From: Paenibacillus sp. oral taxon 786 str. D14
Lineage (GTDB): Bacteria > Bacillota > Bacilli > Paenibacillales > Paenibacillaceae
Direction of reading: 5' to 3'
NCBI RefSeq assembly: GCF_000159955.1
Contig: NZ_GG695982.1
Location: 26,412 to 54,690, forward strand
DNA: 28,279 bases
The notes under the pieces were generated by a model. It did no database searches. It saw nothing but the letters and a program-made list of their open reading frames with translations, and was not told the origin of the DNA. The position numbers and the translations under genes are program-made. The number at the start of each line of letters is the position of its first letter. The first letter of the stretch is position 1. Shown here piece after piece: positions 1,754 through 24,414 of this stretch.

Positions 1754-1789
1754 CAACGTTTCAGCCTGAGGGCTCAGGCTGAAACGTTG
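1754..1789 (+). terminator. 16-bp perfect hairpin between binding protein and GH2 (attenuator or 3' stabiliser)
   Basis: The arms CAACGTTTCAGCCTGA (1754-1769) and TCAGGCTGAAACGTTG (1774-1789) are perfectly complementary around a 4-base GGGC loop. No T-run follows (the next bases are TGTTATGGGGG), so it is not a textbook intrinsic terminator. Hairpins in this position after binding-protein genes commonly protect the upstream mRNA segment or partly terminate transcription, so the lipoprotein is made in excess of the enzymes. That role is inference. Confidence 0.75.
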
Positions 1790-1809
1790 TGTTATGGGGG
1801 CGAAACGTT

Positions 1810-4173
1810 ATGGCAAGAATGATCCAGGATCTTTGTGGAAAATTATGGCAAATGGAAAAAATGCGTATCGGCCAGGGAGAACAGGAAGGATTTCATGTTT
1901 TGCCAGCTGAACGCCAAGGCACCATGTTCAGCTGGAATTTCGCTTCTGTTCCGGGAGATGTTTACACGGATTTGCAACGGGCAGGTGAGATCGAAGACCC
2001 GTATTTCGGGCGAAACATGCACAAGGCGAAGTGGGTGCAGGAATACGAATGGTGGTATGTTCGCCGGTTCAATGTGGACGAAGGAATGAAAGGAAAACGG
2101 ATTTTCCTGGAATTTGAAGGTGTGGACTACAGTTGCACCGTCTGGCTGAACGGACACCGCTTGGGCAGCCATGAAGGGATGTTTTCTTCATTTCGCTTTG
2201 AAGTAGGACACTTGTTGAATTATGACTACTGGGCAGGAGGCTCCAACCAGGTAGTTGTCAAACTGGATCCGCCTCCAAAGAATTTCCGAAATGTCGGTGG
2301 AAAGAAAGTCAATTTTTCGGGAGATTACTTCACCGGATTGATTCCTTTCGGCATTTGGCGGCCGGTTCGTCTTATCGCAACGGATGACGTAAAGATTGAA
2401 CAGTTCCGGACAGAGTATAAAATCGGAGAGAAAGATGCCGTTGTCCAACTGCAGGTGGAAGTCCACAACATGACGGACGAACCGCAAACTGTCGGGATTC
2501 GGGCGGAATTGGAAGGTTATCAGTTTACAAGTGAACGTTATGGTGCCATGGTCGAGAAAACCGTTAACCCCGGGATTCAGATCGTGGAATTGGATGTAGA
2601 AGTGAAAGATGCGAAGTTGTGGTGGCCGTGGGATCTGGGGAATCCGAATCTGTATACGCTGGATCTTACATTGCACCAGGAAGGAAAAGAAATCGACCGA
2701 ATCCGCGATCGGATCGGGATTCGGGAAATTCGGATGGAGATGAATCCAGGTTTTACACCGGAAGAGTCGGAATATCCTTGGACATTTTTCATCAACGGGA
2801 AACGGCATTTTCTGCGTTCCGCTTGTTGGGGAGGCCAGCCTTCTTTCTTGTATGGCCGGAACAATGACAAAAAATACGATCACCGTTTGCGACTCGTCAG
2901 AGAAGCGAACATCAACAATCTGCGGATATTCGGTTGGCATCCTCCGGAAATTCCGACGTTTTACCGCCTATGTGATGAATTGGGCATTACCGTCTGGACG
3001 AATTTCACCTTTTCAACACAGGCGTTTTCGAATGAACCGTCTTTTGTGGAATCCGTTACGAAGGAATGTGCGGAAATTGTCAAACAACGCCGCAATCATC
3101 CCTCCAATATTTTCTGGATGGGTGGAGAAGAGGTGTTTTTTACCGATGCGCATGTGGAAAGCGGCAATCTGGAGTTGATGGAAGCTGTCGGAAAAGCGGT
3201 GGCCGAGCATACGTCCGTTCCTTATGGTCTGGCATCACCGTTGAGCAATGAATTCGGTCAAAAAATGGGATTCAAACCGAAAGAATCTCAACATGCCAAC
3301 GAACATTATTACGGTGGCGGCAGACAATTGATGGAAGAATACTATCCATCCTTGGATTGTGCCATCATTCCGGAATTGACCGCGGCTTCGGCTCCTTCCA
3401 TTGAAAGCCTGCGAAAATTTATCCCTGAAGATGAGCTTTGGCCGCTAGGGCCGAGTTGGGGTTATCATTGGGCGGATATCGATATTTTACAAGGACTTAA
3501 TATTGAGGTATTTGGCGACAAGCGAATGTCTTCACTTGAAGAATTCGTCGAGTCCACGCAGATCGCGCAAGGGACAATTCTGCAATACGCCCTTGAACTT
3601 TATCGCAGACGCAAACCGAGGATGAGCGGTGTTTCGTTCTGTCACTTTATCACCCACTGGCCGGACATCAAGTGGGGAATCGTGGATTATTATGGCAAAA
3701 AGAAACTTAGTTACGATTATGTGAAACGCAGCTATCAACCGTTGTTGCCAAGCCTGGAATTTTCTCGCAGACGCTGGAAAGCCGGTGAATGGTTTGAAGG
3801 AAATATATGGGTTATCAATGATTATCATCACGCTTATGAAGATGTAAAGATAGAATGGGAAGTGATCGACCATAAAGGACAGATTGTTGAGCGCGGAAGC
3901 GTGACAGCGGATGTTGAACCTGACAGTTCACATCAATATGGAAAGGTCAGATGGTTGATTGACATCGGCGCAACCGGTCATTTTGTCGTTCGCCTTAGCA
4001 TCATTAATCGGGAGAAAGCCGTTTTATCGACGAATAAATATCAATTGTTAATCGGTGATCAGGTGCAAATCAAACAAGTCATACTGGAACATCTTAACGA
4101 AAGCGCGAAACGGCGGGAAGAATACGGACACAGTTACTATCGGTATAACCCGGAATTGTGGGAGTTGGAGTAA
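1810..4173 (+). CDS. Glycoside hydrolase family 2, beta-mannosidase-like, cytoplasmic
   Basis: GH2 enzyme, 787 aa, no signal peptide. The order is an N-terminal sugar-binding jelly roll (about residues 20-190), an immunoglobulin-like domain (about 190-300), a TIM barrel (about 300-600) and a C-terminal beta domain. The layout and the PSIESLRKFIPEDELWP segment resemble beta-mannosidase-type GH2s rather than LacZ. The likely acid/base is Glu441 in WMGGEEV and the likely nucleophile is Glu522 in IIPELTA. Unusually, the residue before the acid/base is Glu440 where clan GH-A enzymes normally have Asn. An upstream in-frame GTG at 1789 falls inside the hairpin; ATG 1810 is chosen because GGGGG ends 9 bases before it. 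It lies between the transporter lipoprotein and the FAH hydrolase, so it should act on imported oligosaccharides. Substrate uncertain: beta-mannoside, or another beta-glycoside with altered recognition at C2. Confidence 0.87.
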   Translation: MARMIQDLCGKLWQMEKMRIGQGEQEGFHVLPAERQGTMFSWNFASVPGDVYTDLQRAGEIEDPYFGRNMHKAKWVQEYEWWYVRRFNVDEGMKGKRIFLEFEGVDYSCTVWLNGHRLGSHEGMFSSFRFEVGHLLNYDYWAGGSNQVVVKLDPPPKNFRNVGGKKVNFSGDYFTGLIPFGIWRPVRLIATDDVKIEQFRTEYKIGEKDAVVQLQVEVHNMTDEPQTVGIRAELEGYQFTSERYGAMVEKTVNPGIQIVELDVEVKDAKLWWPWDLGNPNLYTLDLTLHQEGKEIDRIRDRIGIREIRMEMNPGFTPEESEYPWTFFINGKRHFLRSACWGGQPSFLYGRNNDKKYDHRLRLVREANINNLRIFGWHPPEIPTFYRLCDELGITVWTNFTFSTQAFSNEPSFVESVTKECAEIVKQRRNHPSNIFWMGGEEVFFTDAHVESGNLELMEAVGKAVAEHTSVPYGLASPLSNEFGQKMGFKPKESQHANEHYYGGGRQLMEEYYPSLDCAIIPELTAASAPSIESLRKFIPEDELWPLGPSWGYHWADIDILQGLNIEVFGDKRMSSLEEFVESTQIAQGTILQYALELYRRRKPRMSGVSFCHFITHWPDIKWGIVDYYGKKKLSYDYVKRSYQPLLPSLEFSRRRWKAGEWFEGNIWVINDYHHAYEDVKIEWEVIDHKGQIVERGSVTADVEPDSSHQYGKVRWLIDIGATGHFVVRLSIINREKAVLSTNKYQLLIGDQVQIKQVILEHLNESAKRREEYGHSYYRYNPELWELE

Positions 4174-4346: not shown

Positions 4347-5177
4347 ATGCGGATTGTGCAATTTCAACATCTGGGCGTCAAAAAATGCGGAATTGTGGAA
4401 GAAAATGGCATCCTGCCCTTGTCTGCTCGTTTAGATCAAATGATCTCAGGTGAAGTTGATCTTGCGAAAGAAAGAGAAAAAAACAAGGGACAATGGATCG
4501 ATGAAAATGAAATCACTTACGAACCGTGTGTTCCTGCTGGCAAAAAAATCATTTGTGTTGGGCTAAATTACAAGAAACATGCAGAGGAAGCGAAAATGCC
4601 GGTTCCAGCGTATCCCGTTCTGTTTAACAAGTATTCAAACGGTTTAAGCGGGCATTTGGCGGAAATCCCGTTACCCGGATGTGCGGAAAAATTTGATTAC
4701 GAAGCGGAACTTGGGGTTGTAATCGGGAAAAAAGCGAAAGATGTCCGTGAAGAAGAGGCGCTGAGTATCGTATTTGGTTATTGCAACGTCAATGATTTGT
4801 CTGCCCGTGATTTGCAAATGCGGACCGGTCAATGGATGCTTGGCAAAGTTTTGGATGGGTTTTGTCCGGTCGGCCCGTATCTGGTTACCGCCGACGAAGT
4901 GGGAGATCCGAATCAGTTGGAAATCAGCCTGAAACTCAATGGAGAAATCAGGCAATCTTCCAATACGAAAGACATGATATTCAGTGTACCTGAACTGATC
5001 AGTTACATATCCCGTTATATGACGTTGGAGCCGGGTGATCTCATCTTGACCGGAACACCTGAAGGCGTGATTGCCGGTTATCCGGAAGAACGACAAGTTT
5101 GGCTCAAACCGAACGACGAGGTAACGGTAGAAATCGAAAAACTGGGGGTTTTGAAGAATGTGATGAAAGGAGAATAG
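4347..5177 (+). CDS. FAH-family hydrolase (2,4-diketo-3-deoxy-sugar-acid / acylpyruvate hydrolase type)
   Basis: Fumarylacetoacetate hydrolase family, 276 aa, the usual length for bacterial acylpyruvase and 2,4-diketo-3-deoxy-L-fuconate or -rhamnonate hydrolases. The metal triad is visible: Glu119 and Glu121 in DYEAELGVVIGKK and Asp150 in NVNDLSARDLQ. The family motifs ICVGLNYKKHAEE, GQWMLGKVLDGFCPVGP and GDLILTGTPEGV are all present. The ribosome site AGGAGG lies 8 bases before ATG 4347, and the stop is 3 bases before the next gene, a zinc dehydrogenase. In L-fucose and L-rhamnose oxidative pathways an enzyme of this family cleaves a 2,4-diketo-3-deoxy acid to pyruvate and lactate. With a galactonate dehydratase in the same gene run, a hexose-derived diketo acid giving pyruvate and glycerate is the natural extrapolation (inference). 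Confidence 0.92.
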   Translation: MRIVQFQHLGVKKCGIVEENGILPLSARLDQMISGEVDLAKEREKNKGQWIDENEITYEPCVPAGKKIICVGLNYKKHAEEAKMPVPAYPVLFNKYSNGLSGHLAEIPLPGCAEKFDYEAELGVVIGKKAKDVREEEALSIVFGYCNVNDLSARDLQMRTGQWMLGKVLDGFCPVGPYLVTADEVGDPNQLEISLKLNGEIRQSSNTKDMIFSVPELISYISRYMTLEPGDLILTGTPEGVIAGYPEERQVWLKPNDEVTVEIEKLGVLKNVMKGE

Positions 5178-5180
5178 AAG

Positions 5181-6227
5181 ATGCAAGCATTGGTAATCCC
5201 GAAACCGCATGAAATCAGATTGGACGACATCAAGCCTCAATCGATGGGACCGTACGATGTCAGGATAAAGTCCAAAGCGGTCGGAATATGCGGAACGGAT
5301 CTGGAAATCCTGGAAGGGAAAGTTTCCGAGGAATACGTGACTTACCCTGTCGTTCCCGGCCATGAATGGAGCGGTGTTGTAGTTGAAACCGGAAGCGAAG
5401 TAAAGGGAATCAAACCGGGTGATCGTGTCGTCGCGGAAGGACTGATGTCTTGCGGAAGCTGTTCCATGTGCAGACAAGGACGAACCAATCTTTGTCAGGA
5501 ATATGACCAACTGGGTTTTACCCGTCCCGGAGGTGGAGCAAGCCTGGTGACGGTACCTGCCCGGCATGTTCATCGCATACCGGATCATCTCTCCTTTGAG
5601 GAAGCGGTGTTGGTGGAACCTGCCGCAACGGTGATGCGCGGTATCATGCGAACGCCCATCGAGCCGGGAATGAAAGTGGCGGTCATCGGACCGGGGACAC
5701 TTGGCTTGTTAACGGTTCTGATGTTAAAGGTGCTCGGGGTTGATGAGATTTGCCTGATCGGACGAAATGGTTTGCAACTGGGTTTGGGGCGTGAACTCGG
5801 TGCTTCTTGTGTATTGAACAGCAAAGAAGATGATATCGACCAATGCGTAATGGATTGGACGAACGGCCAAGGGGTTGATGTCTCTTTTGAAACATCCGGC
5901 AATGAGCAAGCCGTTAAAATGAGCATTGAGATGGTTCGTGCTGGCGGTCACGCTGTGTTGGAAGGTGTGGCCGGTGCCGGCAAACAGTTGGTGTTGGAAA
6001 GTGACGATATCATGTTGAAAGATATCACGGTTCACGGTGTTTTTTCGTATACGATCAGTTCCTGGAGCAAAGTTTTGGATTGGCTTGCAACGGGTAAATT
6101 GAATATTTCTCCGCTCATCACACATCGTTTTTCCATTCGTGATTATGAAAAAGCTTTTCAGTCGCTTAGAAACAAAACGAGACCTACGGTAAAGATTGTG
6201 ATGTTACATGAGGAGGAAACGATGTGA
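5181..6227 (+). CDS. Zinc-dependent MDR dehydrogenase, likely sugar-acid or polyol dehydrogenase
   Basis: Medium-chain dehydrogenase, 348 aa. Catalytic zinc ligands are Cys37 (GICGTD), His61 and Glu62 (PGHEW). Structural zinc ligands are Cys91, Cys94, Cys97 and Cys105 (CGSCSMCRQGRTNLC). The Rossmann motif VAVIGPGTLGLL shows NAD(P) binding. It belongs to the threonine/sorbitol-dehydrogenase-like branch. It starts 3 bases after the FAH gene with GGAG in front and its stop overlaps the start of the kinase gene (GTGA), so translation is probably coupled. Directly following the diketo-acid hydrolase, it is a candidate for oxidising the C4 hydroxyl of a 2-keto-3-deoxy sugar acid to make the FAH substrate. 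That step in fucose pathways is usually done by an SDR enzyme, so this is inference; a sugar or alditol dehydrogenase is the alternative. Confidence 0.9.
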   Translation: MQALVIPKPHEIRLDDIKPQSMGPYDVRIKSKAVGICGTDLEILEGKVSEEYVTYPVVPGHEWSGVVVETGSEVKGIKPGDRVVAEGLMSCGSCSMCRQGRTNLCQEYDQLGFTRPGGGASLVTVPARHVHRIPDHLSFEEAVLVEPAATVMRGIMRTPIEPGMKVAVIGPGTLGLLTVLMLKVLGVDEICLIGRNGLQLGLGRELGASCVLNSKEDDIDQCVMDWTNGQGVDVSFETSGNEQAVKMSIEMVRAGGHAVLEGVAGAGKQLVLESDDIMLKDITVHGVFSYTISSWSKVLDWLATGKLNISPLITHRFSIRDYEKAFQSLRNKTRPTVKIVMLHEEETM

Positions 6228-7201
6228 ACGTCCTTCAAACAGTTGACGATGTCAGGAGGTTTTTGAAAGAACACAGATGGGTCGACAGGGCGGAAACCTG
6301 TGAAATTTACGAATTGAGTGGAGGCGTTTCCAGCAGGGTTTGGAAAATTGTTACGGAAACCGGGCGCCTGGTACTGAAGCAGGCGCTTCCAAAATTGAAA
6401 GTAAAGGATGCGTGGTTTTCAGATGTAAAACGTATCGAACGAGAGCAACTGGCCATGTCTGCGGTCGGTCAAATTCTCGAGTCTAAACAGGTACCGAAGA
6501 TCATTCAGAGAGATCAGGAAAACCATGCTTATCTGATGACATGCGCACCCGAAGGTTCGGTTCCCTGGAAAGCACAATTGCTCGAAGGAAAGCTGGATCG
6601 AAAGACGGCAGCAGCGGTCGGCACGATGTTGCGACAAATGCATGAAAAAAGCCGTACCATTTCAACATCCATCGTGGATGAACTAAAAGATCTGACGTAT
6701 TTGAACGAATTGCGGATCGTTCCGTTTCACCACTCGATTGCCGCAAAGTATCCGGAATTAGGTGATGCAATTGAGCGTTTGGAACATGAGTTGATAACTG
6801 AAAAAAAATGCTTTGTTCACGGTGACTTTTCACCTAAAAACATTCTTGTCGCCAAAGATAGCCAATTGATTTTGTTGGATTTTGAAGTTGGACACTGGGG
6901 GAATCCGGTCTTTGACCTTGCATTTTGTACCGGGCACCTTTTGTTGAAAGCTTTTGTGTCAGATCAGAAAGACGAGATGTTACATTTAATCAAAGCTTTT
7001 CTCGATGCTTACGGAGAATGGCCGAACAGTTTCATGAGACATCTCGGCTTCATGTTGCTGGCCAGAATTGACGGTCAATCTCGGGTTGAATATGTAAAAG
7101 AACCCGATCTGAAAAATCAAATTCGGCGGATCGGGAAGCAGTGGGTATCGGATCAAAGTGAAATTCATCCATTTGAGACTATGGCGAATGCTTTGAGGTG
7201 A
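6224..7201 (+). CDS. APH-fold small-molecule kinase, candidate glycerate or sugar-acid kinase
   Basis: Aminoglycoside phosphotransferase/choline-kinase fold, 325 aa. The catalytic loop HGDFSPKN gives catalytic Asp201 and Asn206, and LLDFEVG gives the metal-binding Asp219. The GTG start at 6224 overlaps the previous stop by 4 bases and has GGAGG upstream. It ends 10 bases before the enolase paralog, so the two are probably made together. APH-family members often phosphorylate small hydroxylated molecules (choline, homoserine, methylthioribose). In a catabolic run with no antibiotic context and directly before an enolase, phosphorylation of glycerate to 2-phosphoglycerate, or of an analogous 2-hydroxy acid, is the most economical role. 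The kinase fold is certain from the motifs; the substrate is inference. Confidence 0.88.
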   Translation: MNVLQTVDDVRRFLKEHRWVDRAETCEIYELSGGVSSRVWKIVTETGRLVLKQALPKLKVKDAWFSDVKRIEREQLAMSAVGQILESKQVPKIIQRDQENHAYLMTCAPEGSVPWKAQLLEGKLDRKTAAAVGTMLRQMHEKSRTISTSIVDELKDLTYLNELRIVPFHHSIAAKYPELGDAIERLEHELITEKKCFVHGDFSPKNILVAKDSQLILLDFEVGHWGNPVFDLAFCTGHLLLKAFVSDQKDEMLHLIKAFLDAYGEWPNSFMRHLGFMLLARIDGQSRVEYVKEPDLKNQIRRIGKQWVSDQSEIHPFETMANALR

Positions 7202-7211
7202 AAAGAATCGA

Positions 7212-8519
7212 ATGGGCAAAATTAAACAGGTCGTCGGAAGAGAGATTCTCGATTCCCGTGGATATCCAACCATTGAAGTGGATATCACATTGGAAAGTGG
7301 TCATAAAGGCCGCATGATGGTTCCTTCCGGTGCATCCACCGGGAAATTTGAAGCATGGGAGCTTCGTGACCAGGATCCGTCCCGATTTCGCGGGAAAGGG
7401 GTCAGCAAAGCGGTTGCGCATGTGAATCATGAAATCGCAAAAGCGGTCACGGGGCTTGACGCCGCAGACCATGAACGGATTGATCGCACTTTGATCGAAT
7501 TGGACGGAACGAAAAACAAATCCAGACTTGGCGCTAACGCGATCCTCGGCGTTTCTTTTGCAGCGGCACACGCAGAAGCGTCGGAGCGAGGTCTGCCGCT
7601 CTATCAATATCTGGCGGATCGCTTTGGCGACTTGAATGCACAACCTTCGCTGCCACTGCCAATGGTCAATATCATCAGCGGCGGATTGCATGCTGGAAAA
7701 AATATTGACATACAAGATTTTTTAATTATGCCAGTAGGCGCAAAGAGCTATCCGGAAGCTTTACAGATGATTTCGGATGTGTATTTCAAAACGCAGGAAA
7801 TTCTTGCTGCCAAAGGTTATCAATCACGCCTGTTGGCTGATGAAGGAGGGTTTGGACCGCATTTGACCTCCAATGAAGAAGCGTTGGATATTCTTTGCGA
7901 GTCGGTGCAGAGCGCAGGATACAAACGGAAAGATGAAGTAGCTTTTGCCCTGGATGTGGCTTCTTCCCATTTTTATGACGAGTCATCCGGAACATATCGG
8001 TTAGGTGCGGACAAACAGGAACTGACTTCGGAGCAAATGATCGAAAAATTGGAAAATTGGGTGGAGAAATATCCGATTCTCTCCATTGAAGACGGTCTGG
8101 CAGAGGAAGACTGGGCAGGATGGACACGGCTGACCGAACGTCTCGGCGACAAAGTGCAACTCGTGGGAGACGATTTGTTCACCACCAATCCGCAGCGAAT
8201 TCAAAAAGGGATTGCGTTAAAAGCAGGAAATGCCGTTTTGGTGAAAATGAATCAGATCGGTTCGCTGACGGAAACGGTGACGGCAGTGAAGCTGGCTAAA
8301 GAAGCCGGTCTTCTGACGGTGATTTCGGCCCGGTCGGGGGAAACGGAAGATTGTACGCTGGCTGACCTTGCAGTCGGATTAAATGGCGGCCAAATTAAAA
8401 TCGGTTCGATTGCCGGTTCGTCGCGTACAGCGAAATACAACCAATTATGGAGAATCCATCACGAATTGAATGGTCGTTTCACCGGGAAACGGGCGTTTCA
8501 CGGGAGGTTTCATCAATGA
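7212..8519 (+). CDS. Enolase paralog with altered active site
   Basis: True enolase-family protein, 435 aa, full length. Conserved: the flexible SGASTG loop, His160 (GGLHAG), Glu211 (ADEGGF), metal-ligand motifs ALDVASS, SIEDGL and VGDDLF, Lys345 (VKMNQIG), the RSGETED loop and Lys396 (GQIKIG). Changed: the normal IQEF Glu (yeast Glu168) is Asp169, and the normal SHRSGETED His (yeast His373) is Ala373; GDEGG is ADEGG and IKTG is IKIG. Such changes next to the substrate, with the catalytic lysine and metal sites kept, suggest a working enzyme on a modified substrate rather than the housekeeping glycolytic enolase. It sits 10 bases after a kinase and its stop overlaps the start of dgoD (ATGA). 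Housekeeping enolase normally lies with gapA-pgk-tpi-gpm, none of which is here. Dehydration of a 2-phospho-3-hydroxy acid is expected. Confidence 0.93.
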   Translation: MGKIKQVVGREILDSRGYPTIEVDITLESGHKGRMMVPSGASTGKFEAWELRDQDPSRFRGKGVSKAVAHVNHEIAKAVTGLDAADHERIDRTLIELDGTKNKSRLGANAILGVSFAAAHAEASERGLPLYQYLADRFGDLNAQPSLPLPMVNIISGGLHAGKNIDIQDFLIMPVGAKSYPEALQMISDVYFKTQEILAAKGYQSRLLADEGGFGPHLTSNEEALDILCESVQSAGYKRKDEVAFALDVASSHFYDESSGTYRLGADKQELTSEQMIEKLENWVEKYPILSIEDGLAEEDWAGWTRLTERLGDKVQLVGDDLFTTNPQRIQKGIALKAGNAVLVKMNQIGSLTETVTAVKLAKEAGLLTVISARSGETEDCTLADLAVGLNGGQIKIGSIAGSSRTAKYNQLWRIHHELNGRFTGKRAFHGRFHQ

Positions 8520-9670
8520 AAATCACAGATATGGAACTTTTTTTAATCGAACCGAGATGGCTTTTCCTGAAAATCAGTACAGATGAAGGAATCGCGGGTT
8601 GGGGTGAACCTGTTCTGGAAGGAAGAGCCGCGACCACAAAAGCGGCTGTTGAAGAACTGAAAAGTTATTTGATCGGAAAAAATCCGTTGAAGATCGAGGA
8701 TCACTTTCAGGTTTTGTACCGGGGCGGCTTTTATCGCGGAGGGCCTGTATTGATGAGTGCTTTGTCGGGAATTGAACAAGCCCTGTGGGATATTAAAGGG
8801 AAATATTTCAAAGCACCAGTCTATGAATTGCTTGGCGGTGCGGTTCGAGACAAGGTGAAAGTTTACGGTTGGATCGGCGGAGATCGTCCGAGCGAAGCGG
8901 ATCTTTCGTCGCAGGCGAAAAAACAGATTCAATCCGGTTATCAAGCTGTCAAAATGAATGCGACAGAGCAACTGAATTATATCGATTCATATAAAAAGAT
9001 TGACCAGGTATTAAAACGTGTACAAACCGTACGGGAAGCAGTCGGTCCCGACATTTGCATTGCGCTTGACTTTCATGGTCGCGTCCACAAAACGATGGCG
9101 AAAATCCTGGTGAAAGAATTGGAACCGTTCAGGTTGATGTTTATTGAGGAACCCGTATTGCCGGAACATCAAGAGGCGTTAAGAGAAATTGCCAGAATGA
9201 CGACGATCCCGATCGCTACCGGTGAGCGAATGTATACGCGGTGGGGGTTCAAAGAACTGTTGCAGCAAGGATATGTTGATATTATTCAACCGGATTTGTC
9301 CCACGCTGGCGGCATATTCGAAACGAGGAAGATTTCCGCGATGGCGGAAGCGTATGACATCGCGGTTGCGCCGCATTGCCCGTTAGGCCCGATCGCGCTC
9401 GCTTCATGTTTTCAACATAACATCTGCACACCAAACTTTGTCATTCAGGAACAAAGTTTGGGCATCCACTACAATGCAGGTGTGGATCTGTTGGATTACT
9501 TGAAAAATCCTGAAGTATTTTCATATCAAACGGGTTTTGTCGAGCTGCCGACAGCGCCTGGATTGGGAATTGAAGTGAATGAGGAAAAAGTGAGAGAAGC
9601 AGCGAAAAAAGGGCACGATTGGCATGCTCCGATATGGCGACATGAAGACGGCTCTTATGCAGAGTGGTAA
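8516..9670 (+). CDS. dgoD: D-galactonate dehydratase family enzyme (enolase superfamily)
   Basis: Mandelate-racemase subgroup of the enolase superfamily, 384 aa. It converts D-galactonate to 2-keto-3-deoxygalactonate in the De Ley-Doudoroff route. Metal ligands are Asp185 (ALDFHGR), Glu211 (FIEEP) and Glu237 (TGERMY). The bases are His187 and the His of APHCPLGP, in the same spacing as E. coli DgoD (183, 209, 235, 185 and 285, a uniform +2 offset). The motifs LYRGGFYRGGPVLMSA, VYGWIGGDRP, KMNAT and WRHEDGSYAEW are DgoD hallmarks. The start is ATG 8516, with GGGAGG 9 bases upstream and a 4-base overlap with the enolase paralog, not the upstream in-frame ATG at 8447 inside that gene. A related activity, such as 3,6-anhydrogalactonate cycloisomerase, is possible in principle but the motif match to DgoD is better. 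Confidence 0.92.
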   Translation: MKITDMELFLIEPRWLFLKISTDEGIAGWGEPVLEGRAATTKAAVEELKSYLIGKNPLKIEDHFQVLYRGGFYRGGPVLMSALSGIEQALWDIKGKYFKAPVYELLGGAVRDKVKVYGWIGGDRPSEADLSSQAKKQIQSGYQAVKMNATEQLNYIDSYKKIDQVLKRVQTVREAVGPDICIALDFHGRVHKTMAKILVKELEPFRLMFIEEPVLPEHQEALREIARMTTIPIATGERMYTRWGFKELLQQGYVDIIQPDLSHAGGIFETRKISAMAEAYDIAVAPHCPLGPIALASCFQHNICTPNFVIQEQSLGIHYNAGVDLLDYLKNPEVFSYQTGFVELPTAPGLGIEVNEEKVREAAKKGHDWHAPIWRHEDGSYAEW

Positions 9671-9727: not shown

Positions 9728-10771
9728 ATGTTCATGGTCAAGGAAACGATGTGTGCATTGGTTTATGAAGGCCCACGAGAGTTGAACATGCGGCAAGTTC
9801 CTGTGCCAAGGCCAGAAAAAGGTGAAGTATTGGTTCGTGTTCAAAAAGTGGGCATTTGCGGTTCCGAATTGAGCGGTTACCTGGGACAAAATTCCCTGCG
9901 AAAACCGCCGCTTGTGATGGGGCATGAATTTGCGGGCAGGATCGCCGAGATTGGTGAGGGTGTCACTGCATTTCAAGTTGGCGATCGTGTGACCGCCAAT
10001 CCGTTGGTATCGTGCGGAAAGTGTCTGGATTGCCAGTCCGGATACGCCAATCTTTGCGAGAAACGAGTATTGATCGGAGCGGGAATGCCGGGGGCGTTTG
10101 CGGAATATGTGCGGGTGCCATCTGGTAACGTACTGCCGCTTGAGGAAAACGTGCCGATGGATGACGGCGCATTAACTGAACCATTCGCTTGCGCGGTTCG
10201 AATCGCGGCTCTGGCGGAATTGAAACCGTATGATTCGTTATTGATCATTGGAGCAGGGCCGATCGGTTTGCTGACGTTGCGGGTCGCGCAGCTCTATGGC
10301 GTGAATCGTGTTGTCGTAATGGATCTGAATGAAGACCGTTTGTCCATCGTGAAGGCCATGGGAGGGATACCGGCAGCTAACGCGGAACAACTGAAGAAAC
10401 AAATACCGGTTCGCGGCTTCAGTAAATCCGTGGATGCGGTCGGGCTGGAAGTGACCCGTCAGCAATGTGTCGAATACACGCGACCGGGAGGAACAGTCGT
10501 TTTTTCCGGACTTCATCATGCCGACAGTCAATTACCCATCAATTCCTTTATACGGAACGAATTGACGTTTCGCGGGTCGTTCGGATACACGCCTGCAGAT
10601 TTCCACTTCGCATTAAAATGGATTTCAGAGAAAGGTCTTCAACTCGATCAGTGGATGCAAAGGGTACCACTTGAAGAAGGTAAAGCTTGTTTTGAAAAAT
10701 TGTTGTCCGATCCCGGGCCTGTAGCCAAATTTATACTGGAAGTTGAGCCTGAATCAACATTTGGCGAGTGA
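9728..10771 (+). CDS. Zinc-dependent MDR dehydrogenase, candidate aldose or polyol dehydrogenase
   Basis: Second medium-chain dehydrogenase, 347 aa, distinct from the one at 5181-6227. Catalytic zinc ligands are Cys44 (GICGSE), His66 and Glu67 (GHEF). Structural zinc cysteines are 96, 99, 102 and 110 (CGKCLDCQSGYANLC). The Rossmann motif is LLIIGAGPIGLL. The sequence style (GSELSGYLG, PLVMGHEFAG) is that of galactitol-1-phosphate or L-threonine dehydrogenase-like proteins. The start at 9728 has GGGGG about 8 bases upstream. It lies between dgoD and the beta-galactosidase-type GH2, so oxidation of released galactose (or another hexose) towards the aldonate used by DgoD is a sensible role. That is inference; no lactonase gene is visible. 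Confidence 0.88.
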   Translation: MFMVKETMCALVYEGPRELNMRQVPVPRPEKGEVLVRVQKVGICGSELSGYLGQNSLRKPPLVMGHEFAGRIAEIGEGVTAFQVGDRVTANPLVSCGKCLDCQSGYANLCEKRVLIGAGMPGAFAEYVRVPSGNVLPLEENVPMDDGALTEPFACAVRIAALAELKPYDSLLIIGAGPIGLLTLRVAQLYGVNRVVVMDLNEDRLSIVKAMGGIPAANAEQLKKQIPVRGFSKSVDAVGLEVTRQQCVEYTRPGGTVVFSGLHHADSQLPINSFIRNELTFRGSFGYTPADFHFALKWISEKGLQLDQWMQRVPLEEGKACFEKLLSDPGPVAKFILEVEPESTFGE

Positions 10772-10786
10772 AAGAGGAGGATCAAG

Positions 10787-13273
10787 ATGCGCGGCATACC
10801 ATTTAATATCGGTTGGAAATTTTTTTTGGGCGAGCCGGAAGCGCCCCATTTGACCACGACGAACGATGCGGATTGGAGAACCGTTTCCCTTCCGCACGAC
10901 TGGAGTGTGGAACTGTCTTTTGATCAAGAGAAAGGAGAAGCTTGTACAGGATATTTGCCGGGGGGAATCGCCTGGTACCGCAAACATTTTGTAACCGACG
11001 AGAACATGGCGGGTAAGAAAATCTACCTTCATTTTGACGGTATTTACAATCGAGCCAGTGTCTATTGCAATGGGAAATTACTCCGGTTCCATCCTTACGG
11101 CTATTCTCCGTTTGTTGTTGACATCACGGATTTTTTGAACCCGGTTCATGAGGATAATGTCATTGCGGTTAAAGTGGATCATTCCCGATATGCGGACAGC
11201 CGCTGGTACACAGGATCCGGTATTTATCGGAAAGTGTCTATGCATATTTTACCAAAACTCCACATTCCGGTTTGGGGAACGTTCTATTCAACGCCGGTTG
11301 TCCGTGACGATCATGCGATAGTCAAAGGACAGATCACGGTCACCAACGCTTCGGATCAAGATCAGAACTTCGATTTGATTGGAAAGATCTTTGATCCACA
11401 CGGCAATCAAGTTGCATCGCAATCCATCACATACCGCATTGGCTCGAATGAACATGATGAGATCTGCATGGAATTTACCGTTCCATATCCCAAACGGTGG
11501 GATATCCACCAACCCAACATGTATCGTGCGGAAGTTGACATTATCGTTGGTGGTGAAGTGATTCAACGCGAGAAAACTTCCTTTGGTATAAGAGACTTTT
11601 ATTTTGATAAAGATAAAGGGTTCTTTCTCAACGGCCGGCGCACGTTGATTAAAGGGGTTTGCCTGCATCATGACGCGGGTTTGGTCGGTGCAGCGGTGCC
11701 TGGAGATGTCTGGCGAAGAAGGTTGGAATTGTTGAAGGACATGGGCTGCAATGCAATTCGAACCGCGCACAATCCGGTGTCGGAAGACTTTCTGGATTTG
11801 TGTGACGAAATGGGTTTTTTGGTTCAGGAAGAATTTTTTGACGAATGGGATAATCCAAAAGACAAGCGGAAAAACGGAGAAGAAAAATTTGTGGACTATA
11901 TTACGAGGGGACATGCCGAATTTTTCCGCGAATATGCGAAGGAAGATTTGCAAAATACGGTTCGAAGAGACCGGAATCATCCATGTATTATCCAATGGAG
12001 CATTGGTAACGAAATTGAGTGGACGTATCCCAAATACAACGAGGCAACCGGGTATTTCGGCATGAACGCCAGCGGTAACTATTTCTGGACCTTGCCGCCT
12101 AACAGCAAAGAGCAAATCCGGGAAAATATCCGAAAAATTCCCGAAGATGCGTACGATATCGGCAAAACCGCCAAAAAACTCGCGGATTGGACCAGGGAAC
12201 TGGATACGACAAGGCCGGTTACCGCCAATTGCATTCTGCCAAGTGCCAGTTACGAATCCGGCTACATCGATGCATTGGATATGGTAGGTTACAGTTACAG
12301 AAGAGTCATTTATGATTATGGGCATGAACATTACCCCGATAAACCGATCATGGGGACAGAAAATGTCGGACAATGGCATGAATGGAAGGCGGTTCTGGAA
12401 AGAGAATTTGTTGCCGGCACCTTTATTTGGACAGGGATTGACCATTTGGGCGAAGCTTCGGTTCAGAAACCGTGGCCGCGCAAAAGTTCCAATGTTGGAT
12501 TGATTGACCTGGCTGGCTTTCCCAAACCGGCATTCCATATGTTCAAGAGCTTATGGAGCGATGAACCTCACATTCATATGGTTACGCAGCAACTGGAAAA
12601 ATCGCTGTATGAACTGCGTGACGGGGATTTGCAGGAAAAAGAAGAGGGGGCTTGGCAACGAAGGCTTTGGTTCTGGCACGATGTGAATCATCACTGGAAT
12701 TATCGCGCGGGAGAGCAGATTGTTGTCGAAGTTTATTCGAATTGTGATGAAGTTTCTTTGTACTTGAATGATTCTCTGGTCGGGACTCGTTATCTTCATG
12801 AATTTGAAGACCGGATCTATAAATGGCTCGTACCTTTTCAGCCAGGGGAATTGAAGGCCGTCGGGAAGAAAGACGGTAAAACGGTTCAAACAGCGATATA
12901 TACAGTCGGTTCAATTCATGGCATTGCGCTGCAAACGGATAAAGATAGCGTCAAGGCGGATCTGGACAGCGTCGTACATGTGACGGCTCAATTTGTAGAC
13001 GAACAAGGTTTTGCGATCACCAATCAGGAAGAGCGAATCGATTTTGAAGTAGACGGGCCCTGCCGAATTCTCGGCGTTGACAACGGAAGTCCCGACAGTG
13101 TGGAAGATTATCAAAAAAATCATGTCACCACCCATCTTGGAAGATGTTTGATGATTCTACAAGGAACAGCACCTGGAACGATCACCATTCGAGCCCGAAA
13201 CATCCGAACCAATGTGGTGTCCAACGAATGTCAAGTTAAAGTGATTCCGTCATCAGTGGATTTATGTCCCTGA
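10787..13273 (+). CDS. Glycoside hydrolase family 2 beta-galactosidase, cytoplasmic
   Basis: GH2 enzyme, 828 aa, no signal peptide. Domains: N-terminal jelly roll (about 1-175, with the SLPHDWSVE and PGGIAWYRK signatures), immunoglobulin-like domain (about 180-280), TIM barrel (about 285-590), then two beta domains resembling the DUF4982 and invasin/Ig-like modules of many GH2 beta-galactosidases (about 625-820; [16 protein letters not shown] and [13 protein letters not shown]). The acid/base is Glu409 in SIGNEIEW and the nucleophile Glu525 in IMGTENVG, both in normal context. GAGGAGG lies 7 bases before the ATG. Last gene of the first run; it ends 27 bases before the convergent AraC gene with no clear terminator between. 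It probably releases beta-linked galactose from imported oligosaccharides; related GH2s include agarolytic beta-galactosidases. Beta-glucuronidase is less likely given the context. Confidence 0.9.
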
Positions 13274-13300: not shown

Positions 13301-14158
13301 TCATTTTTGGGATGGGGTATTGCGCTGCGATACAAGCGTGATGCCCTTTTTATATTTGATATACAAGTTTCGTCTGTATTCTTTGGGGGAGACGCCGGTC
13401 ACTTGTTTGAAGACACGGCTGAAATAATACGGGTTTGGATAGCCGAGCGATTCACTGATTTTCGAAATATTCAGTGTGTCAAGTAGCATCAGTTCCGTCG
13501 CTTTTTGTATTTTTAACTCGTTAAAGTAGCGATTGATGCTTGTTCCCGTGACGGATTTGAACATTCGTCCGATATAGCTGTAATTCATGTTCAGAGACTC
13601 CTCGATGAATTGGCTGGAGAACGGACTTTCCAGGTGCTCATAAAGCAAGTTTTTCACCTGATCGGTGATAGTTTTGGCTTTCTTGTCCGATCGGTTATTC
13701 ACTTGTTGAACCAACAGTTGATACAAAATATAGTACAAATATCCATTCAGACGTTCCTTTTTGAACGGTTCCGAAGAATTGAAAAGGTGCAACATGGTAT
13801 TTAAAGTTGTGGTCAGGTGCGCAGGTGACGAAACGGTTATTTGTTTCGGCAAAGCGTACTGCTCAACACCTTTTTTGAATTGAAACGGCTTAAACGAAAC
13901 CCAAAACCATTTTGTTCCGGGTTCAATTTCGGTTTTTCCCCAATGCCTGCACCGATGTTTGAGAAAGAAAACTTGATTGCTGGCTATAGCGTAGTCGATG
14001 CCTTCTTCACACAACGTGACGACCCCATTGACAACGTATAGCATTTTATCGATATCCAGGGTTCGATCCACGTGATACCAGGGATTTTTGGTTTCAAACA
14101 GTCCGATGGAAGTCAAATTGGTCAGTTCATTCAAATTGATCACCACTTGATTGATCAT
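13301..14158 (-). CDS. AraC-family transcriptional regulator with cupin-like sensor domain
   Basis: Two-domain AraC/XylS regulator, 285 aa. The N-terminal half (about 1-150) is a cupin-like ligand-binding domain (motifs MLYVVNGVVTLCEEG and WGKTEIEPGTKWFWV). The C-terminal 100 residues carry two helix-turn-helix units: SSQFIEESLNMNYSYIGRMF, then ISKISESLGYPNPYYFSRVF followed by the signature GVSPKEYRR. Two in-frame starts exist: ATG 14167 follows GGAGT by almost nothing, while ATG 14158 lies about 10 bases after it, so 14158 is chosen. It is divergent from the FAD oxidoreductase with overlapping promoter-like boxes and convergent with the GH2 beta-galactosidase gene. It probably senses a sugar or sugar acid and activates the neighbouring genes; which of the runs it controls cannot be told. 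Confidence 0.92.
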   Translation of the reverse strand: MINQVVINLNELTNLTSIGLFETKNPWYHVDRTLDIDKMLYVVNGVVTLCEEGIDYAIASNQVFFLKHRCRHWGKTEIEPGTKWFWVSFKPFQFKKGVEQYALPKQITVSSPAHLTTTLNTMLHLFNSSEPFKKERLNGYLYYILYQLLVQQVNNRSDKKAKTITDQVKNLLYEHLESPFSSQFIEESLNMNYSYIGRMFKSVTGTSINRYFNELKIQKATELMLLDTLNISKISESLGYPNPYYFSRVFKQVTGVSPKEYRRNLYIKYKKGITLVSQRNTPSQK

Positions 14159-14223
14159 AAAACGCATACTCCTTCCAATTATACTTCCTCGAAATATTGA
14201 AATAGTCGAAAAAAGATATTATT

Positions 14224-14304: not shown

Positions 14305-16551
14305 ATGGAGTTTAAAAGAATCAAGGTGAACAACGATTTGACCGTCGTCGGGGGAGGAATGCCGGGAATTTGTGCGGCGATTCAGGCTGCACGACTGGGG
14401 CTAAAAGTGGCACTAATCAATAACCGAGGCTATTTGGGGGGGAATGCCAGCCCGGAATGTAGAGTGAATATAGCGGGAGCAGATGGTGCGCAAGAATTTA
14501 ACTTTTATGCGCGTGAATCGGGCATTATGGAAGAACTGAGGTTGGAAAACCTGTATCGAAATCCGCAAGGTAACCCTTATCTTTGGGAAACTGTGCTTTT
14601 GGATTTTGTGATGCGGGAGGAAAATATTTCACTGTATTTGAACACCAATGTGGACGAAGTTGTAACCGATAATCAAGGTCATATCCGGTATGTGTCGGGT
14701 TCGCAAATCGGGTCAGAACAACGTTTTGAATTTTACAGTCCATATTTTCTGGATGATACGGGAGATGGAACCGTCGGATATTTGGCGGGCGCAGAATACC
14801 GTGTCGGTCGTGAAGGAAAATCGGAGTTTGGCGAACGAATCGCACCCGATGAGCCTGACGATCACGTATTGTTAAGCACGCTGGCTTGGTACTCGAAAGA
14901 TACGGGACGAAAGTCTCCGTTTGTCCTACCCGAATTTGCCAAAAATCTGGATGTGGAAAAAGCGCTGGAATATCGAGAAATACCGGAGCGAATGCCTGGC
15001 AACACCCGTTATGAAGGATACCGGATGCAGTGGTTCTATGAGGTCGGATACGGGAAAGATCAAATTCGTCAAAGCGAAGAAATCATGCAAAACCACAGAG
15101 AACTCGTATACGGAATATGGAATCATATTAAAAACAGCGGTAAATATGATTCGGAGACCTACGATCTGGAATACGTCAGCAGTGTTCCGGGAAAAAGGGA
15201 ATCCAGGCGTTTGATGGGAGACTATATTTTGACCGAAACGGATATTGTGGAACAAAAAGACTTTGATGACGCTATCGGTTACGGAGGCTGGTCCATTGAC
15301 CTGCATGCTTTGGAAGGATTTTTCTCCAAAGATATGACGACCCGGCATTTTGTTCTTCATGGGGTGTATCCGATTCCATACCGTTGTTGCTACTCCAGGA
15401 ACGTCAATAATTTGTTTGTGGCGAGCCGTTGTATGTCTGCATCCCATGTAGCTTTCGGTTCCACACGGGTTATGGCCACGCTTGCGGTTTTGGGACAGTC
15501 GTGCGGAGCAGCCGCGTATCTGTGCAAGAAATATCAGGTGAATCCGAGACAAATTTATGAAAACCATCTGTATGAACTTCAACAATTGTTGCTTAGAAAC
15601 GATCAATTTGTAATCGGAAAGAAAAACGAAGATGAACATGATTTGTGCCGGAAAGCTTCGGTTTCTGCCAGCTCCGTACAACGGTTTGCTTTAGAAACGA
15701 TGGATTACAGCATATCGCTGGATGGGACTTTCGGTTTTATCGTACCGGTAAAGGAGTCGTTGTCCCAGATTGATCTTCAGCTGCAAAGTGACACGGACAC
15801 GGAAATCCAATATTCCGTTTATACAACAAAAAAGAGGCAAAATTATGGCCCGCAAGTTAAATTGTTTGAAGGTTCAGTCCATGTACCTAAAAGCAAAACG
15901 TTCGATTGGATTTCCTTGCCGATTCATTGCAGCACAGACACCGGAAAAGTGTTCATATGGATTCATAAAAATCCTGACGTTCGGATGGGTATGTGCAACG
16001 ATGAAATCAACGGGCTGTTTTTCCTTGAGCAACAACCGTTAAACCGACGCACAACGTTTTGTGATATCGACACATTGGAAGTTAAAAAAGAAATGTGGAG
16101 GATCACCAACGGTTTACCGTGTTTTCGTACGACGCCGGAACAATCCATTTATGGTCCGGAAAATCTGAACAACGGATACAACCGGAATTATGGACTGCCA
16201 AATTTGTGGCTTTCGGAACCATCAAGCGAAAACGAGTCAATCACCATTCAATTTGAAGACGTGAAGTCGATTAGCCAATTACATTTGGTGTTTGATTCCA
16301 ACTTAAATTATTTGTATGATAATCTCGAAATATACCATAATTTTAATGTATTCCCTACATTAGTAAATGATTACACCGTTTATTTCAAGTGTGAAAGCGA
16401 ATGGGAACCCCTGATTTCAATTCAGGACAACCACCAGCGTGTCAACCGGTTAACGTTTGATCCGATTGAAACCTCCGAAATTCGGATTGTGTTCCAAAAT
16501 ACAAACGGAGCCAAACGTTATGGGGTTTACGAGATTCGGGCCTACAGTTGA
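14305..16551 (+). CDS. FAD-dependent oxidoreductase (PF12831-like) with C-terminal beta-sandwich
   Basis: Large cytoplasmic flavoprotein, 748 aa. The N-terminus has the dinucleotide-binding motif VVGGGMPG (Gly16-x-Gly18-x-x-Gly21), followed by GYLGGNASPECR, typical of the FAD_oxidored family found in carbohydrate-utilisation loci. A second family motif, NNLFVASRCMSASHVAFGSTRVM, near residues 370-395 closes the FAD site. Residues from about 455 on form a non-FAD beta-rich region that looks like a discoidin/beta-sandwich module (ISQLHLVFDSNL and SEIRIVFQNTNGA). No signal peptide. GAGGTGAG lies just before ATG 14305. The members' substrates are mostly unknown; oxidation of a sugar or glycoside hydroxyl, or dehydrogenation of an acid, is possible. 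The paired AraC gene suggests an inducible, separately transcribed catabolic step. Function not named beyond the family. Confidence 0.85.
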   Translation: MEFKRIKVNNDLTVVGGGMPGICAAIQAARLGLKVALINNRGYLGGNASPECRVNIAGADGAQEFNFYARESGIMEELRLENLYRNPQGNPYLWETVLLDFVMREENISLYLNTNVDEVVTDNQGHIRYVSGSQIGSEQRFEFYSPYFLDDTGDGTVGYLAGAEYRVGREGKSEFGERIAPDEPDDHVLLSTLAWYSKDTGRKSPFVLPEFAKNLDVEKALEYREIPERMPGNTRYEGYRMQWFYEVGYGKDQIRQSEEIMQNHRELVYGIWNHIKNSGKYDSETYDLEYVSSVPGKRESRRLMGDYILTETDIVEQKDFDDAIGYGGWSIDLHALEGFFSKDMTTRHFVLHGVYPIPYRCCYSRNVNNLFVASRCMSASHVAFGSTRVMATLAVLGQSCGAAAYLCKKYQVNPRQIYENHLYELQQLLLRNDQFVIGKKNEDEHDLCRKASVSASSVQRFALETMDYSISLDGTFGFIVPVKESLSQIDLQLQSDTDTEIQYSVYTTKKRQNYGPQVKLFEGSVHVPKSKTFDWISLPIHCSTDTGKVFIWIHKNPDVRMGMCNDEINGLFFLEQQPLNRRTTFCDIDTLEVKKEMWRITNGLPCFRTTPEQSIYGPENLNNGYNRNYGLPNLWLSEPSSENESITIQFEDVKSISQLHLVFDSNLNYLYDNLEIYHNFNVFPTLVNDYTVYFKCESEWEPLISIQDNHQRVNRLTFDPIETSEIRIVFQNTNGAKRYGVYEIRAYS

Positions 16552-17125: not shown

Positions 17126-18277
17126 ATGGGCCTTTCGAAAAGGGAATTTAAGAAGCCGTTGGAAGGTCTGGTTGTTTTGGAATTCAGCGAACATTTGGCC
17201 GGACAGATTGCCGGATTGCGGTTGGCCGATTTGGGCGCAAGAGTGATCAAGGTCGAATGCTCGAATACACAAAGGCGGAAAACAGAGTTTTTTTCTACAT
17301 ATAACCGCAATAAAGAAAGCTACGCATTTGAGTTGAACGATCATGGCCAACGGTCATTGGAACGATTGCTGGAGAAAGCTGATGTATTGATCGTGAGTCT
17401 TACCGGGAATGGTTTGCAGGAATGGCAGCCGGAAGTTGAGCGTGCATTTGGATGTCAACCTGGAATCATTTATGGGCGAATCACTGGATACGGACAGGAT
17501 GAATGGAATGCGACGGATGAATCTCAAATTACTGAACGATTGGATGACGATCTATTTATACAATCGTTTGCAGGGATTCCATGGTTAAACGGTGATCGTG
17601 ATGATCCACCCATTCCGTTTCCTCTTTCCGTCGTGGAGAAGTTGACTGCTGTCAATCTCGTTCAAGGCATTTTGGCTGCGCTGGTTCGTCGTGCCACCTG
17701 TTCAGGAAAAGGTATGCAAGTGGAAGTCAGTCTGTTGGAGTCGGCGATTGATTTGCAATTTGAACTGATCACCACATTTTTGAATGATGGAAGAAAATTG
17801 CCCGAACGAAGCCGAGTCAGCAACGCTCATGTATATCTTGCGGCACCGTATGGGATTTACGAGACCAAGGCAGGATACTTGGCTCTCGCGATGGGGTCGG
17901 TCATACAGTTGGCGAAATTGTTGAATTGCGACACCCTGTTGCCATATGCCGACCCGGAAAGCTGGTTTACACAACGGGATGAAATCAAACGACATTTGTC
18001 CGTTCATCTGAAACAAAAGACAGCGTCCGAATGGGTTTCGTTGTTGGAAAAAGGCGGCTATTGGTGCATGCAAGTGCAAACAGTGAATGATTTGTTGGAT
18101 CATGACGCCTTTCATGTTTTGAACATGGTGCATCCCGTAGAGGATTCATACGGTCAAATGAACAAGGCGTTTCGTTGTCCGATCCGAATTGACGGAAACC
18201 TTTTGGTCTCGCCGAAAGGGCCCCCGTCTTTGGGAGAGGATACTACTATAATAGAGCATTCGCTTTGTCAAAGTTGA
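17126..18277 (+). CDS. Class III CoA-transferase homolog, degenerate, probably non-catalytic subunit
   Basis: CaiB/BaiF (PF02515) family, 383 aa. It keeps the N-terminal framework (VVLEFSEHLAGQIAGLRLADLGARVIKVE) and NRNKESYA, but key motifs are gone. The catalytic Asp (Asp169 of formyl-CoA transferase, in GDSNSG) is Glu171 here (VVEKLTA), while its two paralogs keep Asp. The NFRPG motif is replaced by SLTGNG, and PGQDLLVQ by LDDDLFIQ. The C-terminal half is close to the paralog at 20704 (NAHVYLAAPYGIYETK, compare NAHAYLGAPYGIYQTK), so it arose by duplication. First gene after the promoter at 16980; GAGGTG lies 11 bases before ATG 17126. Some class III enzymes are hetero-oligomers (for example benzylsuccinate CoA-transferase BbsEF), so a structural partner role is plausible. 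Confidence 0.87.
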   Translation: MGLSKREFKKPLEGLVVLEFSEHLAGQIAGLRLADLGARVIKVECSNTQRRKTEFFSTYNRNKESYAFELNDHGQRSLERLLEKADVLIVSLTGNGLQEWQPEVERAFGCQPGIIYGRITGYGQDEWNATDESQITERLDDDLFIQSFAGIPWLNGDRDDPPIPFPLSVVEKLTAVNLVQGILAALVRRATCSGKGMQVEVSLLESAIDLQFELITTFLNDGRKLPERSRVSNAHVYLAAPYGIYETKAGYLALAMGSVIQLAKLLNCDTLLPYADPESWFTQRDEIKRHLSVHLKQKTASEWVSLLEKGGYWCMQVQTVNDLLDHDAFHVLNMVHPVEDSYGQMNKAFRCPIRIDGNLLVSPKGPPSLGEDTTIIEHSLCQS

Positions 18278-18344
18278 TGGTGTATGACTCCGTTCATTAA
18301 CAGTTTTCGTTTCTCCGGTTGTTCGATTCGCCAAGGAGGATTCC

Positions 18345-19475: not shown

Positions 19476-19524
19476 AACAATTATCTTTTTAAACAAAATA
19501 TAAAAATGAATGTGGTGTTGAAAA

Positions 19525-20676: not shown

Positions 20677-20703
20677 TATTCGTATGCGAGGGGGGGGAGA
20701 ACA

Positions 20704-21858: not shown

Positions 21859-21903
21859 ATCGGCACATTGATCATCGATAAACCTTGAAATGGAGAATAA
21901 ACG

Positions 21904-22668: not shown

Positions 22669-22708
22669 GGGCAAGTAAAATGAAGACATGAAAAAGGGGC
22701 AACCAGAA

Positions 22709-24283: not shown

Positions 24284-24414
24284 TACCAAAGCGTTGACCG
24301 GAAGGTCACTTTTGCAGTTGCAAGCTTGATCCGACATCCTCTGCAATATTCAACAAGTGATTATCAAGGCAGCGACAAAATCGATGCATGAAAAATGAAG
24401 GAAGGGAGATTGTT

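Follow-up and report, generated by a model that had tools for sequence, protein, structure and literature searches.

In a 28,279-nucleotide stretch of DNA from Paenibacillus sp. oral taxon 786 str. D14 (contig NZ_GG695982.1, positions 26,412 to 54,690; hereafter the window), a run of genes on the + strand (4347–9670) encodes, in order, an FAH-type hydrolase, a zinc-dependent dehydrogenase of the MDR family, an APH-fold kinase, an enolase and the galactonate dehydratase DgoD. We found that the kinase and the enolase belong to a near-obligate, portable and apparently undescribed enzyme pair that is wider than the pathway of this run. The paired enolases carry Asp and Ala (D/A) at two active-site positions at which housekeeping enolases carry Glu and His (E/H), and among the sequences examined the pair occurs in nine bacterial phyla and in two archaeal metagenome-assembled genomes (MAGs). 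This unit is the larger finding and deserves attention beyond the pathway. The run itself probably encodes an oxidative, non-phosphorylating hexonate route, most likely for D-galactonate from galactan-derived D-galactose, in which the pair would convert glycerate to phosphoenolpyruvate (PEP).

The window enolase (7212–8519, +) resembles the housekeeping enzyme in its full-length family match (582.9 bits against the equivalog model TIGR01060, cut-off 300) and keeps Glu211, Lys345, Arg374, Ser375 and Lys396. Unlike that enzyme, it has Asp169 and Ala373 in place of Glu168 and His373 (yeast numbers throughout). We take all of these to be positions of the enolase active site; the yeast enolase variants K345A, E168Q and E211Q have reportedly been studied. 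Asp and Ala were fixed in all 55 pair enolases compared, namely that of the window and those of 54 out of 60 pair loci, the other six loci having a matching enolase piece that was too short or broken. A second enolase was taken from each of 22 host genomes, and all 22 have Glu and His. At 80% conservation the two sets differ in five columns (156, 169, 171, 209 and 373), each no more than four residues in sequence from a catalytic position. In a tree built without the five columns, a branch separates the 55 pair enolases from the 22 others (SH-aLRT 99, from a quick search without bootstrap). The D/A rows come from Bacillota, Bacteroidota, Rhodothermota, Acidobacteriota, Planctomycetota, Chloroflexota, Armatimonadota, Pseudomonadota and Actinomycetota and from the two archaeal MAGs; many are MAGs, and single placements may be wrong. 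An E/H enolase was present in 22 of 25 pair-host genomes, and only a D/A enolase was found in the other three (G021, G023 and G025; all MAGs). We rejected the broader idea that a second enolase is as such a D/A enolase, as eight second enolases of Bacteroidota are of the E/H type; the kinase was not sought there. These eight (L244–L251) are 46–48% identical to the queries.

The linkage of the two genes was first counted from the kinase side. A scan with the single kinase sequence gave no matches, and an alignment of 40 rows (A1) was used instead; it recovered 573 relatives among 593 matched stretches, and the locus counts use the best 80 of these 573. In 60 of these 80 loci the kinase gene is followed, at a distance of up to 1.5 kb and on the same strand, by an enolase gene. 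Among the 20 genomes in which the kinase is not adjacent to an enolase, G012 has a D/A enolase elsewhere. The other 19 comprise 16 with a D/A enolase (in one of them a contig break leaves a remnant of the kinase beside the enolase), one with an Asp-type enolase that is cut off before position 373, and two in which only E/H enolases and no D/A enolase were found (G437, where the kinase lies near a contig end, and G445). Four of the loci from Dehalococcoidia and other Chloroflexota (L018, L020, L038 and L040) have the kinase in a conserved cluster whose other genes were named by eye as LLM-type and SDR; a D/A enolase is encoded elsewhere in the genomes of the first three and was not found in that of L040. 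Another role for the Chloroflexi kinases beside such genes was considered and dropped, an Asp-type enolase being present elsewhere in 17 of the 19 non-adjacent genomes searched.

So that genomes would not be selected by their kinase, we also started from the enolase, using 61 genomes from one acidobacterial class and 61 from one Bacteroidota order. Among the 60 best loci with flanks, 10 enolases were D/A, eight of them with the kinase alongside (two of the eight are centre genomes, which had been chosen by kinase), and 50 were E/H, none with the kinase. At E 1e-100 the acidobacterial genomes gave 72 enolase places, 11 D/A and 61 E/H with none mixed; three of the 61 genomes showed no enolase at this threshold. 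The kinase (profile, E 1e-30) was detected in 11 of the 61, which are the same 11 that hold the D/A enolase, and neither was detected in the remaining 50. If the two were independent, the chance of this complete overlap would be ~2e-12, a figure that ignores shared descent. Kinase and D/A enolase adjoin or are fused in nine of the 11 genomes and lie apart in G328 and G337, of which G328 is counted in the non-adjacent test as well. Across 295 Paenibacillaceae genomes, the kinase was found in four (E 1e-40), three of which also have a D/A enolase that passes the threshold of E 1e-148; the fourth kinase genome, Cohnella silvisoli (G004), has a broken, unclassified enolase copy beside the kinase. 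At that locus (L014; C41:281354–282435) the paired enolase is in several pieces with one internal stop, and the kinase reads through. One genome (G352) has a single stop-free frame of 775 codons that scores 264 bits against the kinase profile and 634 bits against the enolase profile, with a possible internal start just before the enolase part. Because of this linkage, the co-occurrence and the fused frame, the kinase very likely makes the substrate of the D/A enolase.

The kinase (6224–7201, +) carries the motifs HGDFSPKN and DFE at about residues 198–206 and 219–221. Both its fold and a match to PF01636 above cut-off place it in the APH/5-methylthioribose (MTR)-kinase fold; at E 0.001 its only Pfam matches were APH-like, with none to PF02595 or PF05161, the class I and class II glycerate kinase domains. 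It differs from MTR kinase itself, to which it is 16–17% identical, scoring 57.8 bits against the NCBIfam model MTRK (cut-off 275). A protein named from Paenibacillus cisolokensis is 98% identical to it. At E 0.001 there were 1,699 relatives among 3,354 candidates, and of the 120 listed, the named ones carry the label aminoglycoside phosphotransferase, phosphotransferase or 5-methylthioribose kinase. No glycerate kinase appeared among the 50 rows of a structure comparison, which excludes nothing. From its context, we infer that the kinase phosphorylates glycerate. Three classes of glycerate kinase, I, II and III, are known from the accessible part of one account (PMC2063504). Their ATP-dependent phosphorylation of glycerate resembles the reaction predicted here, at the 2-position, whereas the window kinase is APH/MTR-kinase-like and tied to its own enolase, and would be a fourth class.

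The other three genes of the run would supply the glycerate. The hydrolase (4347–5177, +; PF01557, 255.7 bits), a predicted 2,4-diketo-3-deoxy-hexonate hydrolase, has L-2,4-diketo-3-deoxyrhamnonate hydrolase as its best solved relative (8gsr, E 4.1e-60, aligned over residues 5–270 of 276). Its best model is NF053535, for 2,4-didehydro-3-deoxy-L-rhamnonate hydrolase, at 240.9 bits (cut-off 500). The motifs of an FAH-type C–C hydrolase are present as a His78/Glu81 dyad and a Glu119/Glu121/Asp150 metal motif, the latter presumably the FAH metal site. A role for the His-x-x-Glu dyad in FAH hydrolases is described in the accessible text of PMC6336799. The dehydrogenase (5181–6227, +; PF08240/PF00107) is nearest to models of threonine/inosose-type dehydrogenases, all under cut-off, and its relatives of solved structure are alcohol dehydrogenases, those of threonine and sorbitol included; judged by its position, it is a putative 2-keto-3-deoxy-galactonate (KDGal) 4-dehydrogenase that would oxidise C4. 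DgoD (8516–9670, +) scores 662.1 bits against the equivalog model NF010624 (cut-off 311) and shares 57% identity with the DgoD of the Escherichia coli type strain. Its residues Asp185, His187, Glu211, Glu237 and His287, which we take to be catalytic, are invariant across five aligned rows. From hydrolase to DgoD, the intergenic gaps are 3, −4, 10 and −4 bases. The first-pass annotation had described this five-gene order and its tight coupling, which the coordinates, families and gaps of −4 to 10 bases bear out; its diketo-acid hydrolase does fall with the 2,4-diketo-3-deoxy-aldonate hydrolases, and its DgoD is a member of the D-galactonate dehydratase family.

In the proposed route, DgoD would dehydrate D-galactonate to KDGal, the zinc dehydrogenase would oxidise KDGal at C4, and cleavage of the resulting 2,4-diketo acid by the FAH hydrolase would yield pyruvate and glycerate. 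Phosphorylation of glycerate at O2 by the kinase and dehydration of 2-phosphoglycerate by its partner D/A enolase would then give PEP, so that carbon would reach pyruvate and PEP with neither an aldolase nor a phosphorylated hexonate on the way. These kinase and enolase steps would fall to a portable unit of an MTR-kinase-fold kinase and a dedicated D/A enolase, which stands beside other sugar-acid genes as well. We infer all of the substrates, the C4 site of oxidation and glycerate as the shared intermediate.

The conversion of a sugar acid by dehydratase, dehydrogenase and FAH hydrolase to pyruvate and a hydroxy acid is described in the accessible parts of PMC6336799 and of a review on L-fucose (PMC13406643); if the substrate is a 6-hydroxy hexonate, the hydroxy acid from this route would be glycerate. 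A close likeness is FAH 'Route III' of Herbaspirillum, among the non-phosphorylative pentose and deoxyhexose pathways, which has the same three kinds of enzyme (PMC6336799). There, however, 2-keto-3-deoxy-D-pentonate (D-KDP) gives glycolate and 2-keto-3-deoxy-L-fuconate (L-KDF) gives lactate, the D-arabinonate dehydratase belongs to the UxaA/GarD superfamily, and the accessible text mentions no kinase or enolase. Another known route also takes a galactose-derived hexonate to a C3 acid and glycerate, but it belongs to the L series, and no mention was found there of the fate of glycerate or of a kinase–enolase unit. The E. coli dgoK-dgoA-dgoD genes, of the DeLey–Doudoroff branch, share the 57% identical DgoD; in the window no DgoK or DgoA was seen, and FAH, kinase and enolase genes stand in their place. 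As for the hexonate route that the first-pass annotation had called undescribed, its logic holds and it is plausible; it is unproved, and its chemistry has forerunners, 'Route III' having been described for pentonates in the accessible part of that paper (PMC6336799).

Clusters related to this run, for which the first-pass annotation had proposed a search, were found in other genomes. The same order of six genes, including a second MDR gene after DgoD, recurs in Cohnella phaseoli and Paenibacillus soyae. A Microbacterium locus (L057) that combines DgoD (560.7 bits) with FAH, SDR, kinase and enolase genes is a separate assembly of these components. Microbacterium AK031 (G010 C13, L133) has a second kinase–enolase pair, also D/A, besides the pair in its DgoD–FAH locus. 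Two Cohnella loci (L011 and L014) have the kinase with an SDR gene, another enolase-superfamily dehydratase and a DUF4432-family gene; L011 additionally has FAH (58%) and the paired enolase, and in L014 no FAH gene was found and the enolase is broken. Overall, an FAH gene was present in 10 of the 60 pair loci (Paenibacillaceae, Pseudomonadota and Actinomycetota) and in none of the 20 loci without a neighbouring enolase, a weak contrast (753 and 257 kb searched, respectively). In a Pelosinus MAG (L069) the pair stands with a GarR reductase (526.3 bits, cut-off 397) and with an HpaI/GarL-like aldolase and a D-2-hydroxyacid dehydrogenase, both below their model cut-offs. The FAH/DgoD clusters and this Pelosinus context support glycerate as the substrate.

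Enolase chemistry requires a 2-phospho-3-hydroxy acid. Around the 80 kinase loci we found no neighbours that name the substrate outright and no third gene family in more than 14 loci; the commonest after kinase and enolase was an SDR family, in 14. Several of the neighbour proteins scanned had no Pfam match. Because no third gene is widely conserved, the product should enter central metabolism directly, that is, as PEP, and the substrate should hence be glycerate. Conversion of glycerate to PEP is thus the best reading of the pair from sequence. Of the first-pass proposal that kinase and enolase carry glycerate through 2-phosphoglycerate to PEP, the feeding of the enolase by the kinase is supported by linkage, co-occurrence and fusion; glycerate itself comes from context only. 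D-glycerate takes a tentative lead over L-glycerate in this operon because of DgoD.

Several observations weigh against the route as proposed. If the intermediate is D-2-phosphoglycerate, the E/H enolase of 22 of the 25 hosts would suffice, and the near-obligate partner with Glu168 changed to Asp and His373 to Ala would be left unexplained. Ordinary glycerate kinases are likewise already present in 22 of the 25 hosts (class I in 14, class II in eight others), and the Pelosinus genome of L069 carries class I in two copies. In most pair loci, nothing matches the remaining pathway genes of the window. The hydrolase falls short of the L-rhamnonate-enzyme cut-off. P. soyae has the same cluster and yet encodes DgoK and an aldolase elsewhere, and in C. 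phaseoli there are 2-keto-3-deoxy-6-phosphogluconate (KDPG)-type aldolases and, besides the DgoD of the cluster, a DgoD-like gene with 67% identity to that of the window.

A kinase that forms D-2-phosphoglycerate would be expected to occur frequently with no enolase of its own, which is hardly ever the case. The near-obligate pairing and the two fixed active-site changes point to a substrate that ordinary enolase handles poorly, and the simplest such substrate that yields PEP is L-2-phosphoglycerate. Tentatively, the D/A enolase may be a distinct enzyme acting on a 2-phospho acid that ordinary enolase cannot use, most simply L-2-phosphoglycerate, and the kinase a fourth, APH-fold class of glycerate kinase, together forming an overlooked entry to PEP.

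We consider it rather unlikely, though worth weighing, that the pair serves L-glycerate, with the kinase making L-2-phosphoglycerate, which a normal enolase cannot use, and the D/A enolase turning it into PEP. In the window this would call for a hexonate with an L-configured C5, from L-galactose of agar or porphyran, or L-idonate or L-altronate. The kinase is hardly ever without a D/A enolase (60 adjacent loci, G012 and 16 of the 19 other non-adjacent genomes), the five columns that separate D/A from E/H are all near catalytic positions, and ordinary glycerate kinases are at hand in most hosts (22 of 25), all of which fits such a role. A porphyranase-type domain in the window points the same way, as does a sulfatase-like gene, so judged by eye, after the cluster in P. 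soyae (L015). However, the DgoD family is that of D-galactonate dehydratase, and both the DgoD route and the GarR route, the latter represented in L069, give D-glycerate. In addition, if the three MAGs with only a D/A enolase (G021, G023 and G025) are complete, this enzyme must serve glycolysis there with D-2-phosphoglycerate.

A larger 2-phospho-3-hydroxy acid, such as a tetronate, is an improbable substrate of the pair; a wider D/A pocket would make room at C3, and the FAH product would have no bearing on the pair's place in the operon. The C3-hydroxyl side of the pocket, as known from work on yeast enolase, is close to both fixed changes (Glu168 and His373), and many pair loci lack the other pathway genes of the window. 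The phosphoenol product would nevertheless need a further enzyme, for which no widely conserved third gene family stands with the pair, and the FAH and DgoD contexts predict a C3 acid.

The first-pass annotation had seen no kinase or aldolase for 2-keto-3-deoxy-6-phosphogalactonate (KDPGal), and this stands: no KDGal kinase or aldolase was found among 15 window proteins scanned against Pfam, the remaining open reading frames (ORFs) being judged by eye. Four relative genomes (P. soyae, C. phaseoli, C. nanjingensis and Microbacterium AK031) were searched for the competing route. A DgoK-family gene was found in one, P. soyae, ~71 kb from the cluster on the same contig and with a KDPGal-type aldolase gene beside it. 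None was found in the other three, and KDGal kinases of other families were not sought in any of the four; KDPG-type aldolases were present in all four. At E 1e-60, P. soyae has one DgoD-like match, C. phaseoli four and Microbacterium three. An ordinary DeLey–Doudoroff route, running from DgoD to a KDGal kinase and aldolase encoded elsewhere while FAH, kinase and enolase do unrelated work, is highly improbable. The DgoK and aldolase genes of P. soyae, whose only DgoD match is the cluster's own, speak for it; the failure to find a DgoK-family gene in Cohnella phaseoli, Cohnella nanjingensis and Microbacterium AK031, the close packing and the same gene order in three genomes speak against it.

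Among the open-access titles and abstracts listed, we found no APH-fold glycerate kinase or kinase-paired enolase described, which is weak evidence of novelty; no open-access paper was found that joins L-2-phosphoglycerate with enolase. The words 'diketo' and 'glycerate' are absent from the main text of a 2024 review of KDGal catabolism (PMC11219438). The glycerate-to-PEP reading gives a testable role to this kinase family, whose listed members bear other names, and to an enolase group that scores as plain enolase. If it is true, genome models misassign both enzymes, a fourth class of glycerate kinase exists, and organisms that degrade galactans can pass from galactonate to pyruvate and PEP with neither KDGal kinase nor aldolase. 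Should the pair act on L-glycerate, nature has evolved a sister of the textbook enzyme enolase whose stereospecificity is new.

The surroundings of the run look like a setting for galactan use. Downstream of DgoD, after a gap of 57 bases, lies the second zinc-dependent dehydrogenase (9728–10771, +; PF08240/PF00107), possibly an aldose 1-dehydrogenase that would convert galactose to galactonate; it adjoins DgoD in L006 and L015 too. It is followed, after 15 bases, by a GH2 glycosidase resembling the GalA/GalB beta-galactosidases (10787–13273, +; NF041462, 575.8 bits, below the cut-off of 900). Upstream of the run are a GH2 glycosidase with mannosidase-like domains (1789–4173, +; PF22666, PF00703 and PF17786) and an ORF without a Pfam match that was assigned by eye as a probable lipoprotein solute-binding protein of a sugar ABC transporter (100–1737, +). 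A large glycosidase-like protein with a porphyranase beta-sandwich domain (24388–28279, +; PF18206, 35.7 bits), open at the window end, suggests agar or porphyran as a carbon source.

Between these regions, 17126–24220 (+) encodes a solute-binding protein set among three CaiB-type CoA transferases, one of which was confirmed by Pfam and two were assigned by eye. An enoyl-CoA hydratase and an aldehyde dehydrogenase come next, and both have relatives upstream of the cluster in P. soyae (L015). An FAD-dependent oxidoreductase (14305–16551, +) has a weak F5/8-type C-terminal match below cut-off and adjoins a divergent gene for an AraC-type-looking regulator (13301–14167, −).

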